Shown: piece after piece, positions 34,094-40,773 of the stretch
Numbering within the stretch: position 1 is the first letter of the stretch
How the letters are laid out: each line of letters begins with the position of its first letter
Source of the DNA: Thermocrinis albus DSM 14484
GTDB lineage: Bacteria > Aquificota > Aquificia > Aquificales > Aquificaceae
Direction of reading: 5' to 3'
Length of the DNA: 64,000 nt
Assembly (NCBI RefSeq): GCF_000025605.1
Contig: NC_013894.1
Location: 977,529-1,041,528 of the forward strand
Position numbers and translations under genes: made by a program
Notes under the pieces: generated by a model
What the model was told of the DNA's origin: nothing
Database searches by the model: none
What the model saw: the letters and a program-made list of their open reading frames with translations, nothing else

Positions 34094-36874
34094 ATGAGGG
34101 ATTACAGAGATACCCTCAACTTACCAAGAACTGAGTTTCCTATGAAGGCCAGCCTTCCCCAAAAAGAACCCCATATACTACAGAAGTGGAAAGATCTCTA
34201 CCAACGGTTAAGGGAAGCCAGGAAGGACTGTCCTACCTTTGTGCTACACGATGGACCACCTTACGCCAACGGCCACATCCACATAGGACACGCCCTCAAC
34301 AAAATCCTTAAGGATGTCATCAACAAGTACTGGCTACTGAAAGGCTATCGTGTAGATTACGTGCCCGGTTGGGACTGTCATGGACTCCCCATAGAGCAAC
34401 AGGTGGAGAAAGAACTGAAGGCCAAGAAGATAAGAAAAGAAGATTTACCTAAGGTGGAGTTTAGAAGACTATGCAGGGAATACGCAGAAAGATTCGTGCA
34501 GATACAGAAGGAAGAGTTTGTGAGACTCGGTGTTTTGAGTGACTGGGATAACCCTTACCTCACCATGGATCCCCTTTACCAGGCACAGGAGATAAGGGAG
34601 CTGGGAAGACTCTTCAGTAAAGGACTTGTTGTGAGAAGTAAGAAGCCTGTTTACTGGTGCATCTACGACAAAACAGCTGAAGCCGAAGCGGAGGTGGAGT
34701 ACTACCAGAAGGAAGATCCCAGCGTATACGTAAAGTTTCCCGTAAAGAACTCCCCCAACCTCTATCTTGTAGTGTGGACCACCACACCGTGGACCCTCCC
34801 TGCCAACAGAGGCGTTATGGTGGGAGAGAACTACCGCTACATCTTCTGGAAGGTAGATGAAAAGATCTACATCGTGGCTGAGGAATTACTGGAATCCTTA
34901 AAGGAAAAGTTGGGAAAAGAGGGCCAAGTCATTAAGAGGGTTACAGGAAAGGATCTACTGCACATGGAATACATACCCCCCTACCACCAGGAACCTCAGA
35001 AGGTATACCCTTCCGAGTTTGTGGAGCTGTCAGCAGGTACAGGTATCGTTCACATGGCACCTGGACATGGAAGAGAGGACTATACGGTGGGTCTCCGCTA
35101 CGGTATAGAACCTTTCTCACCGGTGGATGACGAGGGAAGATTTACCCAAGATGCGCCCTCCTTCCTACAGGGTGTGAGAGTCTTTGAAGCTAACCAACTT
35201 ATACTGGAGGATCTTCGTAAGAGAGGTCTACTTCTTCACGAGGAGAAGATCGTTCACTCTTATCCCCACTGTTGGCGCTGTAAGAATCCCGTAATCTTTA
35301 GGGCAACGGATCAGTGGTTCGTCAACTTATCCGCTCCGGTGGAAGGAGGGAAAACTCTCAGGGAGCTCTGTCTTGAGGAGATCCATAAGGTGAGATGGAT
35401 ACCTCCTCAAGGAAAGAACAGGATCTTCAGTATGGTGGAAAACAGACCAGACTGGTGTATATCCCGTCAACGTTACTGGGGTGTTCCCATAACGGTTCTT
35501 TACTGTAAGAACTGTGGATATGTGATAAAAGATCAATGGCTTTTCGAAAAGGTGGCGCAGCTGGTGGAGAACTCACCCACAGGTGCCGATGTGTGGTTCA
35601 CTTTGCCGGTGGAGGATCTACTTCCCCAAGGTTATAGATGTCCTGCTTGTGGTGGTGATGAGTTTCTGAAGGAGGAGGACATTCTGGATGTTTGGTTTGA
35701 TTCAGGGTCATCCCACGCCTTTGTACTGAGAAGAAGGGGTATAGATAAAGCTGATATGTACCTGGAAGGATCTGACCAACATAGGGGATGGTTTCAGGCG
35801 TCGCTTTTGGAATCTGTGGCCTCCTACGGACATGCTCCCTACCGATCTGTGTTAACTCACGGCTTTACTGTGGATGAGCAGGGTAGAAAAATGTCCAAGT
35901 CTCTGGGTAATGTGGTTTCGCCTCAGGAAGTTCTAAAGGAGTACGGTGCAGATATACTCAGGTTGTGGGTTGTTTCGGAAGACTACACGGAAGATATAAG
36001 GCTCGGTAAAGGCATCCTCCAGAGACTGGCGGAGGACTACAAGAAGATAAGGAACACCCTCCGTTTCCTTTTAGGTAACCTTTACGACTTTACCATCCAG
36101 AATACGGTGGAGTACCAAAATCTTCACCCATTGGACAGATGGATGGTGTCTTATCTTCAAAAGGTCTTGGAAAAGATGCACCTCTATTATCAGGAGTATA
36201 CCTTCCACAGGGTTTTCCATCTTATCAGGAACTTCTGTAGTGTGGAGCTGTCCAGCTTTTATCTGGATGTTCTCAAGGATAGGCTTTACGTGTATGCTCC
36301 TGACTCTTGGGAGAGGAGATCCGCTCAAACGGTCCTCTACCAGCTTCTCATAGCCCTCACCACAGGTGTGGCTCCTTTCCTCAGTTTTACGGCAGAGGAA
36401 GTGTGGGACCATGTCAGAAAGATAGATCCCTCTCTACCTGACAGCGTCTTTCTTTACAGGATGCCAGAACCTGATCCTGCTTGGGTGGACGAGGAACTCC
36501 TCAAGGACTTTGACGTAATCCTAAAGGTGAGGGATGACGCCATGTCGGCCATAGAGCTCGCCCGTAGACAGAAGGAGGTGAATCATCCTTACGAGGTACA
36601 CCTCTTCGTGTGGGGAAGGGAAGATGTCCTGAGCATCCTTGCCAAGTATCGGGAGAATCTTAAGTTCTTCTTCAGCGTAAGTAGTGTGAGTTTGGAGGAA
36701 GGTGGTAAGTACAGACATGCCTCTGAGGAACTACAGGGTCTGTGGGTAGGTGCTCAGAGGGTAGAGGGTGTCAAATGCCCCCGCTGTTGGCTCTATTACC
36801 CTCAGGAGGAGATGGAAGGAGAGCTATGCAAAAGGTGTGCCGAAGTGTTAAGGTATGTGGGACACAGTTCTTGA
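34094..36874 (+). CDS. ileS: Isoleucyl-tRNA synthetase
   Basis: Class I aminoacyl-tRNA synthetase charging tRNA-Ile, 926 aa, complete. HIGH is at 63-66, the editing domain (CP1) follows with TTTPWTLPAN and GTGIVHMAPGHG, KMSKS is near residue 600, and a C-terminal zinc finger is seen (CPRCW...CKRC). There is no Shine-Dalgarno; the -10 TATAAT ends 10 nt upstream, so the mRNA is probably leaderless. No T-box or other leader fits. Its end overlaps the next gene by 20 nt. Confidence 0.97.
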   Translation: MRDYRDTLNLPRTEFPMKASLPQKEPHILQKWKDLYQRLREARKDCPTFVLHDGPPYANGHIHIGHALNKILKDVINKYWLLKGYRVDYVPGWDCHGLPIEQQVEKELKAKKIRKEDLPKVEFRRLCREYAERFVQIQKEEFVRLGVLSDWDNPYLTMDPLYQAQEIRELGRLFSKGLVVRSKKPVYWCIYDKTAEAEAEVEYYQKEDPSVYVKFPVKNSPNLYLVVWTTTPWTLPANRGVMVGENYRYIFWKVDEKIYIVAEELLESLKEKLGKEGQVIKRVTGKDLLHMEYIPPYHQEPQKVYPSEFVELSAGTGIVHMAPGHGREDYTVGLRYGIEPFSPVDDEGRFTQDAPSFLQGVRVFEANQLILEDLRKRGLLLHEEKIVHSYPHCWRCKNPVIFRATDQWFVNLSAPVEGGKTLRELCLEEIHKVRWIPPQGKNRIFSMVENRPDWCISRQRYWGVPITVLYCKNCGYVIKDQWLFEKVAQLVENSPTGADVWFTLPVEDLLPQGYRCPACGGDEFLKEEDILDVWFDSGSSHAFVLRRRGIDKADMYLEGSDQHRGWFQASLLESVASYGHAPYRSVLTHGFTVDEQGRKMSKSLGNVVSPQEVLKEYGADILRLWVVSEDYTEDIRLGKGILQRLAEDYKKIRNTLRFLLGNLYDFTIQNTVEYQNLHPLDRWMVSYLQKVLEKMHLYYQEYTFHRVFHLIRNFCSVELSSFYLDVLKDRLYVYAPDSWERRSAQTVLYQLLIALTTGVAPFLSFTAEEVWDHVRKIDPSLPDSVFLYRMPEPDPAWVDEELLKDFDVILKVRDDAMSAIELARRQKEVNHPYEVHLFVWGREDVLSILAKYRENLKFFFSVSSVSLEEGGKYRHASEELQGLWVGAQRVEGVKCPRCWLYYPQEEMEGELCKRCAEVLRYVGHSS

Positions 36875-37535
36875 ACTACAGAGGAGGGAGGAGGAGCTGC
36901 AGCGTCTTAGAAAACTTTTGGAAAAGTTAAAAAGCCAGAGAGATGATTATCTAAGACAGATAGATGAAGTGCTTCAAGAAGAGAGGCAGATAATAGCAGA
37001 GTTGAACGAAGCCATAGATAGCATAAGACATCAGGAAGAAAAACTCAGAGAGTGTGAGGAAAATTTGAAAAGATCAGAAGAAAGGCTTAAAAAGGTGAGA
37101 AAAGCCGAAGAGTATAGAGCACTTCTTAAGGAAAAGGCCAAGAACGAGGACTGCATAATAAAGGGCAGACAACGCCTTCAGGAACTGAAAAGACAGAAAA
37201 CCCACATAGAGCAGAAACTGAAGGAACCTACCAGAGTGAAGAGAAAAACACAGTTGGAAGAAGCGCTGGGAGAACTGGAGGATGACATAAGAAGATTGGA
37301 GAAAAAATATCAGGAGTCTTACGAGGAGTTTATCGCTTTCTGTCAAAAGGTACCCCCCGATATACTGGAAGAGTACCAGAAACTGAAGGAGAAGGTGGGA
37401 CTGCCTGTGATGGTTAAGGTGGATACCTTCGGTACCTGTAGCTACTGTGGTACCAAGCTTCCCTCTTCCCTTTACTCTAAGGTTATCAGGGGAGAAAAAG
37501 TGATCTGTCCCACCTGCGGTAAAGTGGTCTACTGA
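36855..37535 (+). CDS. Coiled-coil protein with C4 zinc ribbon (CT398-like)
   Basis: A 226-aa protein: residues ~1-175 are one long antiparallel-type coiled coil, followed by a zinc ribbon with CSYCGTKLP and CPTCGKV. This matches the zf-RING_7/CT398 family, proposed to interact with sigma-54 or other nucleic-acid complexes in Chlamydia, but without a settled role. The start overlaps ileS. The last 7 nt overlap the convergent AAA+ gene. Confidence 0.85.
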   Translation: MWDTVLELQRREEELQRLRKLLEKLKSQRDDYLRQIDEVLQEERQIIAELNEAIDSIRHQEEKLRECEENLKRSEERLKKVRKAEEYRALLKEKAKNEDCIIKGRQRLQELKRQKTHIEQKLKEPTRVKRKTQLEEALGELEDDIRRLEKKYQESYEEFIAFCQKVPPDILEEYQKLKEKVGLPVMVKVDTFGTCSYCGTKLPSSLYSKVIRGEKVICPTCGKVVY

Positions 37536-40339
37536 ATAGACTCTATTATGCTCCGTATCACCTCCCTCTCTAAGGGAGATCCTGCCTTAGGCAGAACTGT
37601 CTCTATAACCACTCTCTTTGCATCTTGGTATCTTTCCAGTCTTCTTGCGCATCTCACTGTGTCCCTTATGGAGAACACCAACTCCACGGGTTCTTCCGAC
37701 TGTTGTGTCTGGTACTGGCGGTAGGCGTTTCTTATGGCGTTGGCTATCTTGAGAAGCTCCCATAGAAGAAGTATTCTTTTTTCTCTTTCCTTAGACCAGA
37801 CAGCCTTTGCCCTCTCTGTGGCCACACCGTTCACCACCAGGTACCATAGATAGCTGAACTCTTCCGTGTTGAGTTCTGAAAGATGAGGCACGTAATCCTT
37901 CAGTATTATGGCCTCGTCGGGATAGTAAAAACCTCTCCCGTCCTCAAAGGGAGGATAGTCTATGTAAAGCACATCTGCCCGCGATTTTATGTCCTGCGGT
38001 AGTTCTGAAACCCCAAGGTAATGCTGTGGGTTCATTCCCCCTACCAGAATAACATCTCTTCTTGCCTTTATGACTTCTCCCGTAGGTAAAGCCAGGTACC
38101 TTCTGTAATCAAAGAGGGGGTTAAAAAGCTTTACTAAAGAGGGCGGAAGCGTGTTGATCTCATCCAGGTATATAACGGCACCCGGTGTCTGAAGAGCTTT
38201 TACCAGTTCCGAATATACCCTTCTTGTACCCCTTCTGGCATCAAACTCATACGTAAAAGTGAGATCTTCCTTCTCCAGCTTAGAGTTACAGGGTATTATG
38301 TAAAGGGGTCTGCCTGTAAGGGCAGAAAAAACCTCCACTAGGAAGTTTTTACCAGTACCTGCATCACCTTCCAGTATGAGGATGCCCTCGCCGAAGGCCA
38401 GTTGGTCCTTCACCAGAGAGGTAAAACGCTCTAGGTTTTCCACAAACCAAGGAGTTTCCTCGTAGGCCACCACTACAGGTCTTCTGTACTCTTGGTGGGA
38501 ACAAAGCCCACGGAGATGTCTAAGATAGTTACTGAGCCATCTGGGAGGGTGTCTGAGTTCCTCTTGGGATAATATGGCAGGATAACGCTTAGGTTCCACC
38601 ACAACACCATCCTCACGCTGGAAAGCTATCTTAACGAGAGTCTTACCCTCCCACACTAACCTGTCTTCTACCACCAGTCTCCAGTGAAGCCTTCGCCTTT
38701 CGCCTGAGAACTTGGGAAACTCCTCTTTTCCCAGCATCACCTTGTCGGGAGTAATTTGTATCCTGAACCTTTTCAACCTATACTCCACCAATCTCTCCTG
38801 CAGGAGACGCGTGAGCTCCTCCTGTGCCTTATGCTGAAGGTCACTTACCAACTTGGTCATAAACTCCCTGAAGGACTTAACCTCCTCAAGGGCTTCCATT
38901 TCCGTGATATCTCTAACCTCTATCTGAGCTAGAAGTTTTCTGAGTTCCTCCAGCCTCTGTTCCATGGATGTTCGCATGTAGGTTAAAACTTCTTCTTTGA
39001 GTTGCTCCAGTCTTCTGATGTCTTCTTCCCTCTCCGCGGTTTTAATTCTTTCCTCTAAGAGTTTCACATCTTCCTTGTCTACGGTGCCATTCTGTAGTTT
39101 TTCCCTCATCTCTTGAAGAAAGATCTGAAGGAGTTTCTCCCTCATCTCCTCCTGGGCTTTGGTAATCATCTGCCGTACCTTCCCGAGAGGTATGTCTATA
39201 GACAGAAGTTGCTTAAACTCCTCTATAGTCTCTATCTCTTCCTGCCTTTTTGCTCTCTTTAACTTCTTCTGAAACTCCCTGTAAAGATCCTCCGCATTTT
39301 TTATGACTTGTCGCTGTCTTTCCTGAGGGTACACAAAATCCAGTATGTTGGAGGAGAGCTTGGTAAGATAGTAAAAAGTTCTTTCTTCTGTTTCTTCCTT
39401 CCTACAGGTGTACACGCTTCCGTCCGGGGATACCCTAACTACCGAGTAACCGAACCCCTCCAGGACCGTTAGAGTGCTGAGAGTTTTTGCGTCCAGTATA
39501 CCCATACGGTTTTGCTCTGCATCTGCAAGAAAGAGAAAGTTACCTTCGGGATCCAAATCCATCTGGGATACCTTCATGTCCACATATCCTGTCTGGAGCA
39601 CACTTCCGCTAACCGTATCCAAAACCACCACTGTGTTCCCTTCTGCCAGATAAAGTCTTTGGTTCTGTAAAGCCACCGCGCCTCCCGATCTATACGGAAA
39701 AACTTTTTCCTGACTACCGTTAAGGTGGTATATGGCTCCTCCCTCCGTTCCCGAGAGGTAGATCCTGTTGTTATCAATGAACCGAATCTCCCTGAGATCC
39801 CCAATCCCTGAGTAAGATATACTGTATCTGAAATCCACTGTCTGAAAGTTGATGTCTGACCCCAGGTCTATCACGTAAACCCTACTACCTACTGTACCGA
39901 AAGCTAGAAGATTATTTCTTATGTCCAGTCCGAAGGATGGTCTGAAGCCTTCCTGAGAGAAACGGAAACTCTTCCACGCAGGAGGGTTTTTGGGATCTTC
40001 CATGAAGTACACCACAAGGTATGGGGGCGTCAGAAGGGCGAGATACCTACCTCTGAACAGCACCTTGGAGACCACCTGTGCGGGTGGTCTGGAAGGAAGG
40101 CGGTGTAGTTTCCCAGTCCAGTCGTACAACTGGAACATACCGTGTCTTCTACCTACCAAAAGCCAGTAAGCGTCTTCCGATACGTCCATACTCTCTATCC
40201 AGAACTCCTCCATACGGGCATCTGGATCCTTCTCCAGCGTGTCCTCCACCCAGAGCCTTAGCTCACCTACAGGCGAGTCTATTTTGTAAACAGGAGTTTC
40301 GTCCTTCTTCAGACCCATAAGCCTTCTGAGAAAGTCCAT
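37529..40339 (-). CDS. Beta-propeller/coiled-coil/AAA+ (AAA_5, MoxR-like) ATPase
   Basis: A 936-aa multidomain protein I cannot assign to a named family. Residues ~45-330 consist of repeated short beta-strand blades with Asp-rich turns (for example DLDPEGNFLFLAD, VRVSPDGSVYTC), most like a WD40/YVTN-type propeller. Residues ~340-520 are charged coiled coil; ~525-600 form a small beta domain. Residues ~630-935 are an AAA_5-type ATPase: Walker A GDAGTGKN (658-665; Asn in place of Ser/Thr), Walker B VIYLDEIN (722-729), sensor 1 GGMN (767-770). No signal peptide or membrane helix. A VWA partner gene, usual for MoxR ATPases, is absent. Start ATG 40339 has no Shine-Dalgarno; TAAATT ends 9 nt upstream. 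Confidence 0.85.
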   Translation of the reverse strand: MDFLRRLMGLKKDETPVYKIDSPVGELRLWVEDTLEKDPDARMEEFWIESMDVSEDAYWLLVGRRHGMFQLYDWTGKLHRLPSRPPAQVVSKVLFRGRYLALLTPPYLVVYFMEDPKNPPAWKSFRFSQEGFRPSFGLDIRNNLLAFGTVGSRVYVIDLGSDINFQTVDFRYSISYSGIGDLREIRFIDNNRIYLSGTEGGAIYHLNGSQEKVFPYRSGGAVALQNQRLYLAEGNTVVVLDTVSGSVLQTGYVDMKVSQMDLDPEGNFLFLADAEQNRMGILDAKTLSTLTVLEGFGYSVVRVSPDGSVYTCRKEETEERTFYYLTKLSSNILDFVYPQERQRQVIKNAEDLYREFQKKLKRAKRQEEIETIEEFKQLLSIDIPLGKVRQMITKAQEEMREKLLQIFLQEMREKLQNGTVDKEDVKLLEERIKTAEREEDIRRLEQLKEEVLTYMRTSMEQRLEELRKLLAQIEVRDITEMEALEEVKSFREFMTKLVSDLQHKAQEELTRLLQERLVEYRLKRFRIQITPDKVMLGKEEFPKFSGERRRLHWRLVVEDRLVWEGKTLVKIAFQREDGVVVEPKRYPAILSQEELRHPPRWLSNYLRHLRGLCSHQEYRRPVVVAYEETPWFVENLERFTSLVKDQLAFGEGILILEGDAGTGKNFLVEVFSALTGRPLYIIPCNSKLEKEDLTFTYEFDARRGTRRVYSELVKALQTPGAVIYLDEINTLPPSLVKLFNPLFDYRRYLALPTGEVIKARRDVILVGGMNPQHYLGVSELPQDIKSRADVLYIDYPPFEDGRGFYYPDEAIILKDYVPHLSELNTEEFSYLWYLVVNGVATERAKAVWSKEREKRILLLWELLKIANAIRNAYRQYQTQQSEEPVELVFSIRDTVRCARRLERYQDAKRVVIETVLPKAGSPLEREVIRSIIESIQ

Positions 40340-40458
40340 GGTTTTTTAAATTTAAGAGAGCTAAAGGCATTAACTTATAAGTATTTACTTATATCTATAT
40401 AAGCACTCCTTATCTGGGGGTGTGAGGTTATCCTGTTTGAAGTATTATATTAAGTACT
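40340..40458. promoter_or_regulatory. Divergent control region with two dyads
   Basis: This AT-rich gap separates the AAA+ gene (minus) and a small gene (plus). It holds a 10-bp palindrome ACTTATAAGT (40373-40382) and an inverted repeat CTTATAT-CT-ATATAAG (40388-40403). Candidate -10 boxes are TAAATT on the minus strand (40354-40349) and TATATT on the plus strand (40446-40451), each 7-9 nt before the start codon. The dyads lie where they could control the AAA+ promoter from its -35 side. Confidence 0.55.
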
Positions 40459-40773
40459 ATGGAAGAGATCACACACCACGTTCTTCAAATCTCCCGCTTG
40501 TTGGGTCTTGCCGAACCTGTTGGTTTTATGCTATCTTACGAGATGGGCGATCTATGGATAGACGTTTACTTGGAGAAGGATGAAGATGGGCAGTTTTCCG
40601 GAAGGACATACACCCTCAGCGTACCTCTTCATAAGAGGGAGAGGTTGGAGAGTTTGGTGAGGAGCTTCTTCAACGGCAACGTACAGATAAGTAACGATAA
40701 CGAGAGACTTTATGTAAGCTTCTCCCAAGAAGAGTGGGAAGAGATAAACAGGGAACTTACCAGTCTCTTCTGA
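40459..40773 (+). CDS. Hypothetical small protein
   Basis: A 104-aa soluble protein with an alpha/beta pattern (N-terminal helix, strands LWIDVYLEKDEDGQFSGRTYTLSVP, C-terminal helix EEWEEINRELTSLF). I do not recognise a family. It is transcribed divergently from the propeller-AAA+ gene and shares the control region, which makes a joint role possible. There is no Shine-Dalgarno; TATATT lies 7 nt before ATG. Its stop is part of the next gene's ribosome site (TGAGGTGCT). Confidence 0.75.
   Translation: MEEITHHVLQISRLLGLAEPVGFMLSYEMGDLWIDVYLEKDEDGQFSGRTYTLSVPLHKRERLESLVRSFFNGNVQISNDNERLYVSFSQEEWEEINRELTSLF

Follow-up and report, generated by a model that had tools for sequence, protein, structure and literature searches.

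We analyzed a gene in a 64-kb stretch of DNA (hereafter the window) that encodes a 936-residue protein with an AAA+ module at its C-terminus. The AAA_5 match of the protein in Pfam was far above chance (E value 2.6e-27; 95.9 bits against a cut-off of 22), and no other Pfam match exceeded its cut-off in the remainder of the sequence. No family in Pfam or NCBIfam covers the protein as a whole. The initial annotation of the locus had proposed a propeller, a helical region and an AAA_5 module in that order, and the same order was obtained with Pfam, AlphaFold2 and Foldseek. The features of the gene and its upstream region are listed in Table 1.

Table 1 Features of the propeller ATPase gene and its upstream region. 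Coordinates refer to the window; residue numbers refer to the 936-residue protein.
Feature	Position	Strand	Basis
ORF for the 936-residue protein with propeller, helical arm and MoxR-clade AAA+ module	37529..40339	-	ATG start, stop codon included
Beta-propeller, residues about 17-330, seven blades predicted	39350..40291	-	AlphaFold2; Foldseek to WD40/G-beta; weak profile matches to propeller structures
Helical/coiled-coil arm, residues about 333-524	38768..39343	-	Helices in the AlphaFold2 model, pLDDT mostly 70-93
Beta-rich and helical linker with conserved E-P-[KR]-R motif, residues about 527-626	38462..38761	-	Conserved alignment columns; strands in the AlphaFold2 model
AAA+ module (AAA_5, MoxR clade), residues about 627-936	37532..38461	-	Pfam; CbbQ and NorQ as best solved relatives
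Walker A, GDAGTGKN (658-665)	38345..38368	-	GDAG[TV]GKN invariant
Walker B, VIYLDE (722-727)	38159..38176	-	D726 and E727 invariant
Sensor 1, GGMN (767-770)	38030..38041	-	M769 and N770 invariant
R787, candidate arginine finger (SRAD)	37979..37981	-	Invariant; role by analogy with MoxR proteins
R892, candidate sensor 2 (SIRDT)	37664..37666	-	Invariant; role by analogy
Divergent intergenic region with AT-rich inverted repeats	40340..40458	.	Inverted-repeat search

The structure prediction that the initial annotation had suggested as a check, computed by AlphaFold2 from an alignment of 15 orthologues, gave approximately seven four-stranded blades over residues 17 to 330, mostly with pLDDT values of 83 to 92. 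The predicted propeller is about 310 residues long, somewhat longer than the 285 residues initially estimated. Foldseek placed the model on G-protein beta and other WD40 propellers, with a best E value of 3.5e-13 and a target-normalised TM-score of about 0.70. Sequence searches with this region returned no named propeller family. These results suggest that the N-terminal region adopts a seven-bladed WD40-like propeller fold. The region that follows had been described as a coiled coil of about 180 residues; a helical arm was indeed predicted, but it spans about 190 residues and consists of broken helices, not of a single continuous coiled coil. Residues 527 to 626 form a conserved beta/helical linker that had escaped the initial annotation, and a conserved E-x-TPWFV motif directly follows it at the border of the AAA module in the orthologue alignment. 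The AAA core was the weakest part of the AlphaFold2 model (pLDDT 40-75).

The GDAGTGKN, YLDEIN and GGMN motifs noticed at the outset are the catalytic motifs of the AAA module, and the orthologue alignment showed that GDAG[TV]GKN, D726-E727, M769-N770, R787 and R892 are all invariant. By its sequence, the protein appears to carry an AAA_5/MoxR-clade module complete with Walker A, Walker B, sensor 1 and arginine finger motifs. The asparagine after the Walker A lysine, which had been called unusual, is so, and it is also a fixed trait of the family: it replaces the typical serine or threonine in all orthologues examined, and the motif read GDAG[TV]GKN at each of the 67 orthologue loci where it was detected. 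Serine or threonine at this position does not define the AAA_5/MoxR clade, because plasmid-encoded relatives also possess GKN.

The gene had been described as standing alone, which agrees with the orthologue loci, where the neighbours change from genus to genus and none is conserved. The small gene at 40459, singled out as a possible conserved neighbour, was absent from all 208 of the other loci examined. The proposal of a controlled promoter is not supported: our search for a sigma-70-like pattern upstream of the gene found no such site. The divergent intergenic region contains AT-rich inverted repeats, TATAAGTA/TACTTATA and CTTATAT/ATATAAG, at positions 40374 to 40403 of the window, and these could possibly represent an operator. 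On the other side, a gene for a coiled-coil zinc-ribbon protein (Zn_ribbon_9, with a weak CdsZ-like match) at 36855 to 37535 of the window is convergent with the ATPase gene, and the stop ends of the two genes overlap by 7 bases. A search of the locus for defence systems gave no PADLOC match.

A survey of Aquificota, as the initial annotation had advised, found orthologues in 58 of 64 genomes of the Aquificaceae (family f1, including Aquifex, Hydrogenobaculum and others) and in no other family of the phylum. The propeller ATPase is a core gene of this one bacterial family. Every full-length orthologue aligned carries propeller and ATPase in a single chain. When two peptide patterns were searched against 84,980 species, full-length relatives among the matches listed were essentially restricted to Aquificaceae. 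The single exception was an orthologue with 57% identity on a 182-kb contig (L033) from a bin labelled Acidobacteria; this is probably a mislabelled or misbinned Aquificaceae contig.

The initial annotation had stated that no VWA-domain protein is encoded here, and had reasoned that the propeller takes the place of the VWA partner. This argument rested on a search confined to the 64-kb window and is not supported. A family search of the whole genome detected one VWA_2 match, a 622-residue protein encoded at G000:C1:481533-483392, more than 500 kb from the ATPase gene. Like the propeller ATPase, this protein is restricted to Aquificaceae. Its MIDAS is complete, with D-x-S-x-S, T518 and D549 invariant across the family. 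The best solved relative of the VWA profile was the MIDAS domain of midasin, and the match included an extension before the VWA core; the same extension was included when the protein was aligned with NorD/CbbO-type proteins (E value 1e-9). In the predicted structure, which shows no propeller, a disordered linker joins an N-terminal domain of helices to the VWA domain at the C-terminus. The best fold matches of the model were the MIDAS domains of Rea1/MDN1, followed by NorD from NorQ-NorD complexes. NorD itself is organised as an N-terminal domain, a linker and a VWA domain (PMC9976466), and the "finger" before its VWA core, described as missing from integrin-type VWAs, inserts into the NorQ pore (PMC9976466, PMC13036017). 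The corresponding residues of the Aquificaceae protein (about 399 to 439, before the first VWA strand) are conserved and can be aligned with both midasin and NorD; their pLDDT in the model is 30 to 40. Sequence and predicted fold together suggest that the protein belongs with the VWA proteins that partner AAA rings, such as midasin and NorD.

The surroundings of the VWA gene vary. In the window genome, it is followed by genes for a type IIG restriction-methyltransferase-like protein and a PLD plus SNF2 helicase protein (L109:365-7067, minus strand), which are a candidate defence cassette. In genome G016, a gene for an encapsulin shell protein (Linocin_M18, E value 4.8e-68; L112:8068-8916, minus strand) lies directly upstream of the VWA gene, a neighbourhood not shared with the other genomes compared.

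Although never adjacent in the loci examined, and unlinked in the window genome, the ATPase and VWA genes occur together. Among the 64 Aquificaceae genomes, 55 contain both genes (including two in which neither is intact), three contain neither (G005, G018 and G019), three contain only the ATPase gene and three only the VWA gene. None of the six genomes with one gene (G047, G010, G079, G048, G049 and G070) is more than 94% complete. Frameshifts and stop codons disrupt the two genes in G001 and G041, whereas the flanking genes and the gene for IleRS are intact. With broken genes counted as lost, the Fisher test, which ignores phylogeny, gave p 3.6e-4 for co-loss in the 64 genomes and p 1.5e-5 in the 51 genomes that are at least 85% complete. 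The losses represent about three to four independent events because G001 and G005 are near sisters (97% IleRS identity, compared with 68% between G018 and G041). An apparent frameshift in the VWA gene of G020 proved to be an assembly gap of Ns.

The two proteins also diverge together. The distance matrices of ATPase and VWA protein from 15 genomes were correlated with r 0.98 and with a partial correlation of 0.95 (Mantel p 2e-4) given the standalone MoxR protein, the one control used, in a genome set that includes two fast-evolving genera; without these genera, r was 0.87 and the partial correlation 0.83. The ATPase gene and one unlinked VWA gene are joined in presence, absence, decay and divergence.

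We considered three other explanations for these observations. The proposal of the initial annotation, in which the propeller replaces the VWA partner and the ATPase acts with no such protein, draws on the invariable fusion of propeller and ATPase and on the lack of a VWA neighbour at the ATPase orthologue loci. It does not account for a VWA protein encoded elsewhere in the genome that tracks the ATPase gene through presence, loss, decay and divergence, and several of the closest AAA relatives outside Aquificaceae are encoded beside VWA genes; we regard it as unlikely. A second explanation assigns the VWA protein to the standalone MoxR protein (AAA_3; G000:C1:940265-941185 in the window genome) and treats its agreement with the propeller ATPase as coincidence. 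MoxR proteins usually have VWA partners, and none is encoded beside this one. However, MoxR is spread through the phylum, also where the VWA protein is absent; it is retained in G019, G018, G041 and G001, where the ATPase/VWA pair is lost or broken, and it went undetected in G004 and G006, where the pair is kept. In the genomes of at least 85% completeness, MoxR losses were not associated with losses of the ATPase or VWA genes; across all 64 genomes, a weak association between the losses of VWA and MoxR remained (p 0.054), but it disappeared once incomplete genomes were dropped. Nor did MoxR show co-divergence beyond that explained by the ATPase, as the partial correlation of MoxR and ATPase distances given the VWA protein was -0.17. 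This explanation therefore seems highly improbable.

The remaining explanation is that the ATPase and the VWA protein act in one pathway, for instance on the same client, without forming one machine. Joint loss and co-divergence do indicate functional linkage and not contact; on the other hand, ATPases of this class operate with VWA proteins, and VWA proteins of this class with AAA rings, and we give such a separation of the two very little weight. In the window genome, the MoxR gene adjoins a likely porphobilinogen synthase (hemB) gene (L126:6266-7189, plus strand), and no VWA or DUF58-like neighbour was recognised there.

We propose, with a probability of about 0.72, that the propeller ATPase belongs to a MoxR/VWA remodelling machine that is restricted to Aquificaceae, has its two genes apart in the genome and would operate in the manner of NorQ-NorD, CbbQ-CbbO or midasin. 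Physical contact between the two proteins is what we infer from their shared history and from the classes to which they belong. Because the history of the VWA protein follows that of this ATPase, and not that of the standalone MoxR, the propeller more likely serves as an extra module for targeting or scaffolding than as a replacement for the VWA protein. In the proposed machine, the AAA modules would assemble into a hexameric ring, and the extension at residues 399 to 439 or so of the VWA protein would enter the ring pore, as the NorD finger enters NorQ. As in that complex, the VWA protein would act as a plug of the ring and pass force to the client: its MIDAS and N-terminal domain may grip the client, and ATP hydrolysis would strain the client through the VWA linker, so that a protein complex is matured or rebuilt. 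Since every ATPase subunit has a predicted propeller and helical arm, docking modules would surround the ring; these could bring in the client, tether it to a complex or keep the VWA protein in place. The most likely docking partner of the propellers is the client, some scaffold or else the VWA protein.

Two respiratory enzymes were considered as clients. The aa3 cytochrome oxidase as an obligate client was suggested by its absence from G001 and G005; it was argued against by G020 and the g10 genomes, which keep the pair without an aa3-class match, and by G019, which has aa3 without the pair. NO reductase is an unlikely client: the four COX1-family matches of the window genome include no homologue of the classes of about 470 or about 750 residues. 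This exclusion is indirect, because the 472-residue class matches cbb3 subunit I weakly and the 748-residue class has no NCBIfam name. A conserved client should be sought among the genes lost together with the ATPase/VWA pair.

MoxR/VWA machines are usually detected by gene adjacency, as in the paired examples compared below. The Aquificaceae case points to a pair scattered over the genome that only shared losses and parallel divergence can reveal, and to a propeller docking arm built into the ATPase. As a thermostable system, it would allow the function of such arms in MoxR machines to be studied.

The nearest solved AAA modules were CbbQ (best, E value 9e-15) and NorQ, both of which have VWA partners. 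In a 20-sequence tree, which does not settle the deep order, the Aquificaceae AAA modules formed a clade of their own outside the NorQ/CbbQ clade (support 100/99), and the propeller ATPase does not appear by sequence to be a member of the latter. NorQ-NorD, which inserts iron into cNOR, resembles the Aquificaceae pair in its single MoxR-clade AAA module and in a VWA protein with N-terminal domain, linker, MIDAS and pre-core extension (PMC13036017, PMC9976466). By contrast, NorQ lacks a propeller and arm and has GKT in Walker A instead of GKN, and norQ and norD lie together in nor operons, whereas the genes are unlinked here. The Rubisco activase CbbQ-CbbO includes the best solved AAA relative and likewise has a VWA partner, but it has no propeller, its genes are adjacent and the NorQ/CbbQ clade (100%) excludes the propeller ATPase.

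Among the neighbourhoods examined, five plasmid homologues (L100, L101, L211, L212 and L213) lie directly beside a VWA-domain gene. Two of these, on Paenibacillaceae plasmids (L100:5287-9340 and L101:5296-9119), share the rare GKN Walker A as well as the adjacent VWA gene, which follows the ATPase gene, but their ATPases have a different, unusual N-terminal region in which no propeller was seen. Both pairs are near genes for thymidine kinase, SSB and a primase-like protein. Propellers are also known from the MoxR-vWA beta-propeller ternary conflict systems of Kaur et al. 2020, in which the propeller is fused to the VWA protein or to a third component and the P-loop is often GXXXTAKS (PMC7159879). 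These systems likewise combine MoxR, VWA and propeller, whereas in Aquificaceae it is the ATPase that bears the propeller, the P-loop reads GDAGxGKN, the genes belong to the core genome and are unlinked, and PADLOC gave no match. The DUF3686 "DNA repair ATPase" (about 1750 residues) has a parallel layout, with DUF3686 at the N-terminus, a long coiled-coil-looking middle and a C-terminal AAA module. Membership in this family was rejected: the profile comparison aligned only the AAA part, weakly (probability 1.4%, E value 0.036), the DUF3686 domain had no match in the propeller ATPase, and the AAA module falls in a separate clade from those of the DUF3686 ATPases.

Midasin (Rea1) contains the MIDAS domain that best matches the VWA protein in both sequence and fold, and the titles of its solved complexes indicate that it acts on clients through their UBL domains. 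These clients are propeller-bearing proteins. Midasin differs in joining six fused AAA modules and the VWA domain in one chain; here, a single AAA module would work with a VWA protein in trans, and it is the ATPase that bears the propeller. The Aquificaceae pair might on this comparison resemble a midasin taken apart, in which a homomeric MoxR ring with a crown of propellers and a midasin/NorD-type VWA in trans uses its own propellers to recruit or present a clade-specific client, for example a respiratory or ribonucleoprotein complex; we offer this arrangement tentatively, as a possible but rather doubtful extension of the split-machine reading.
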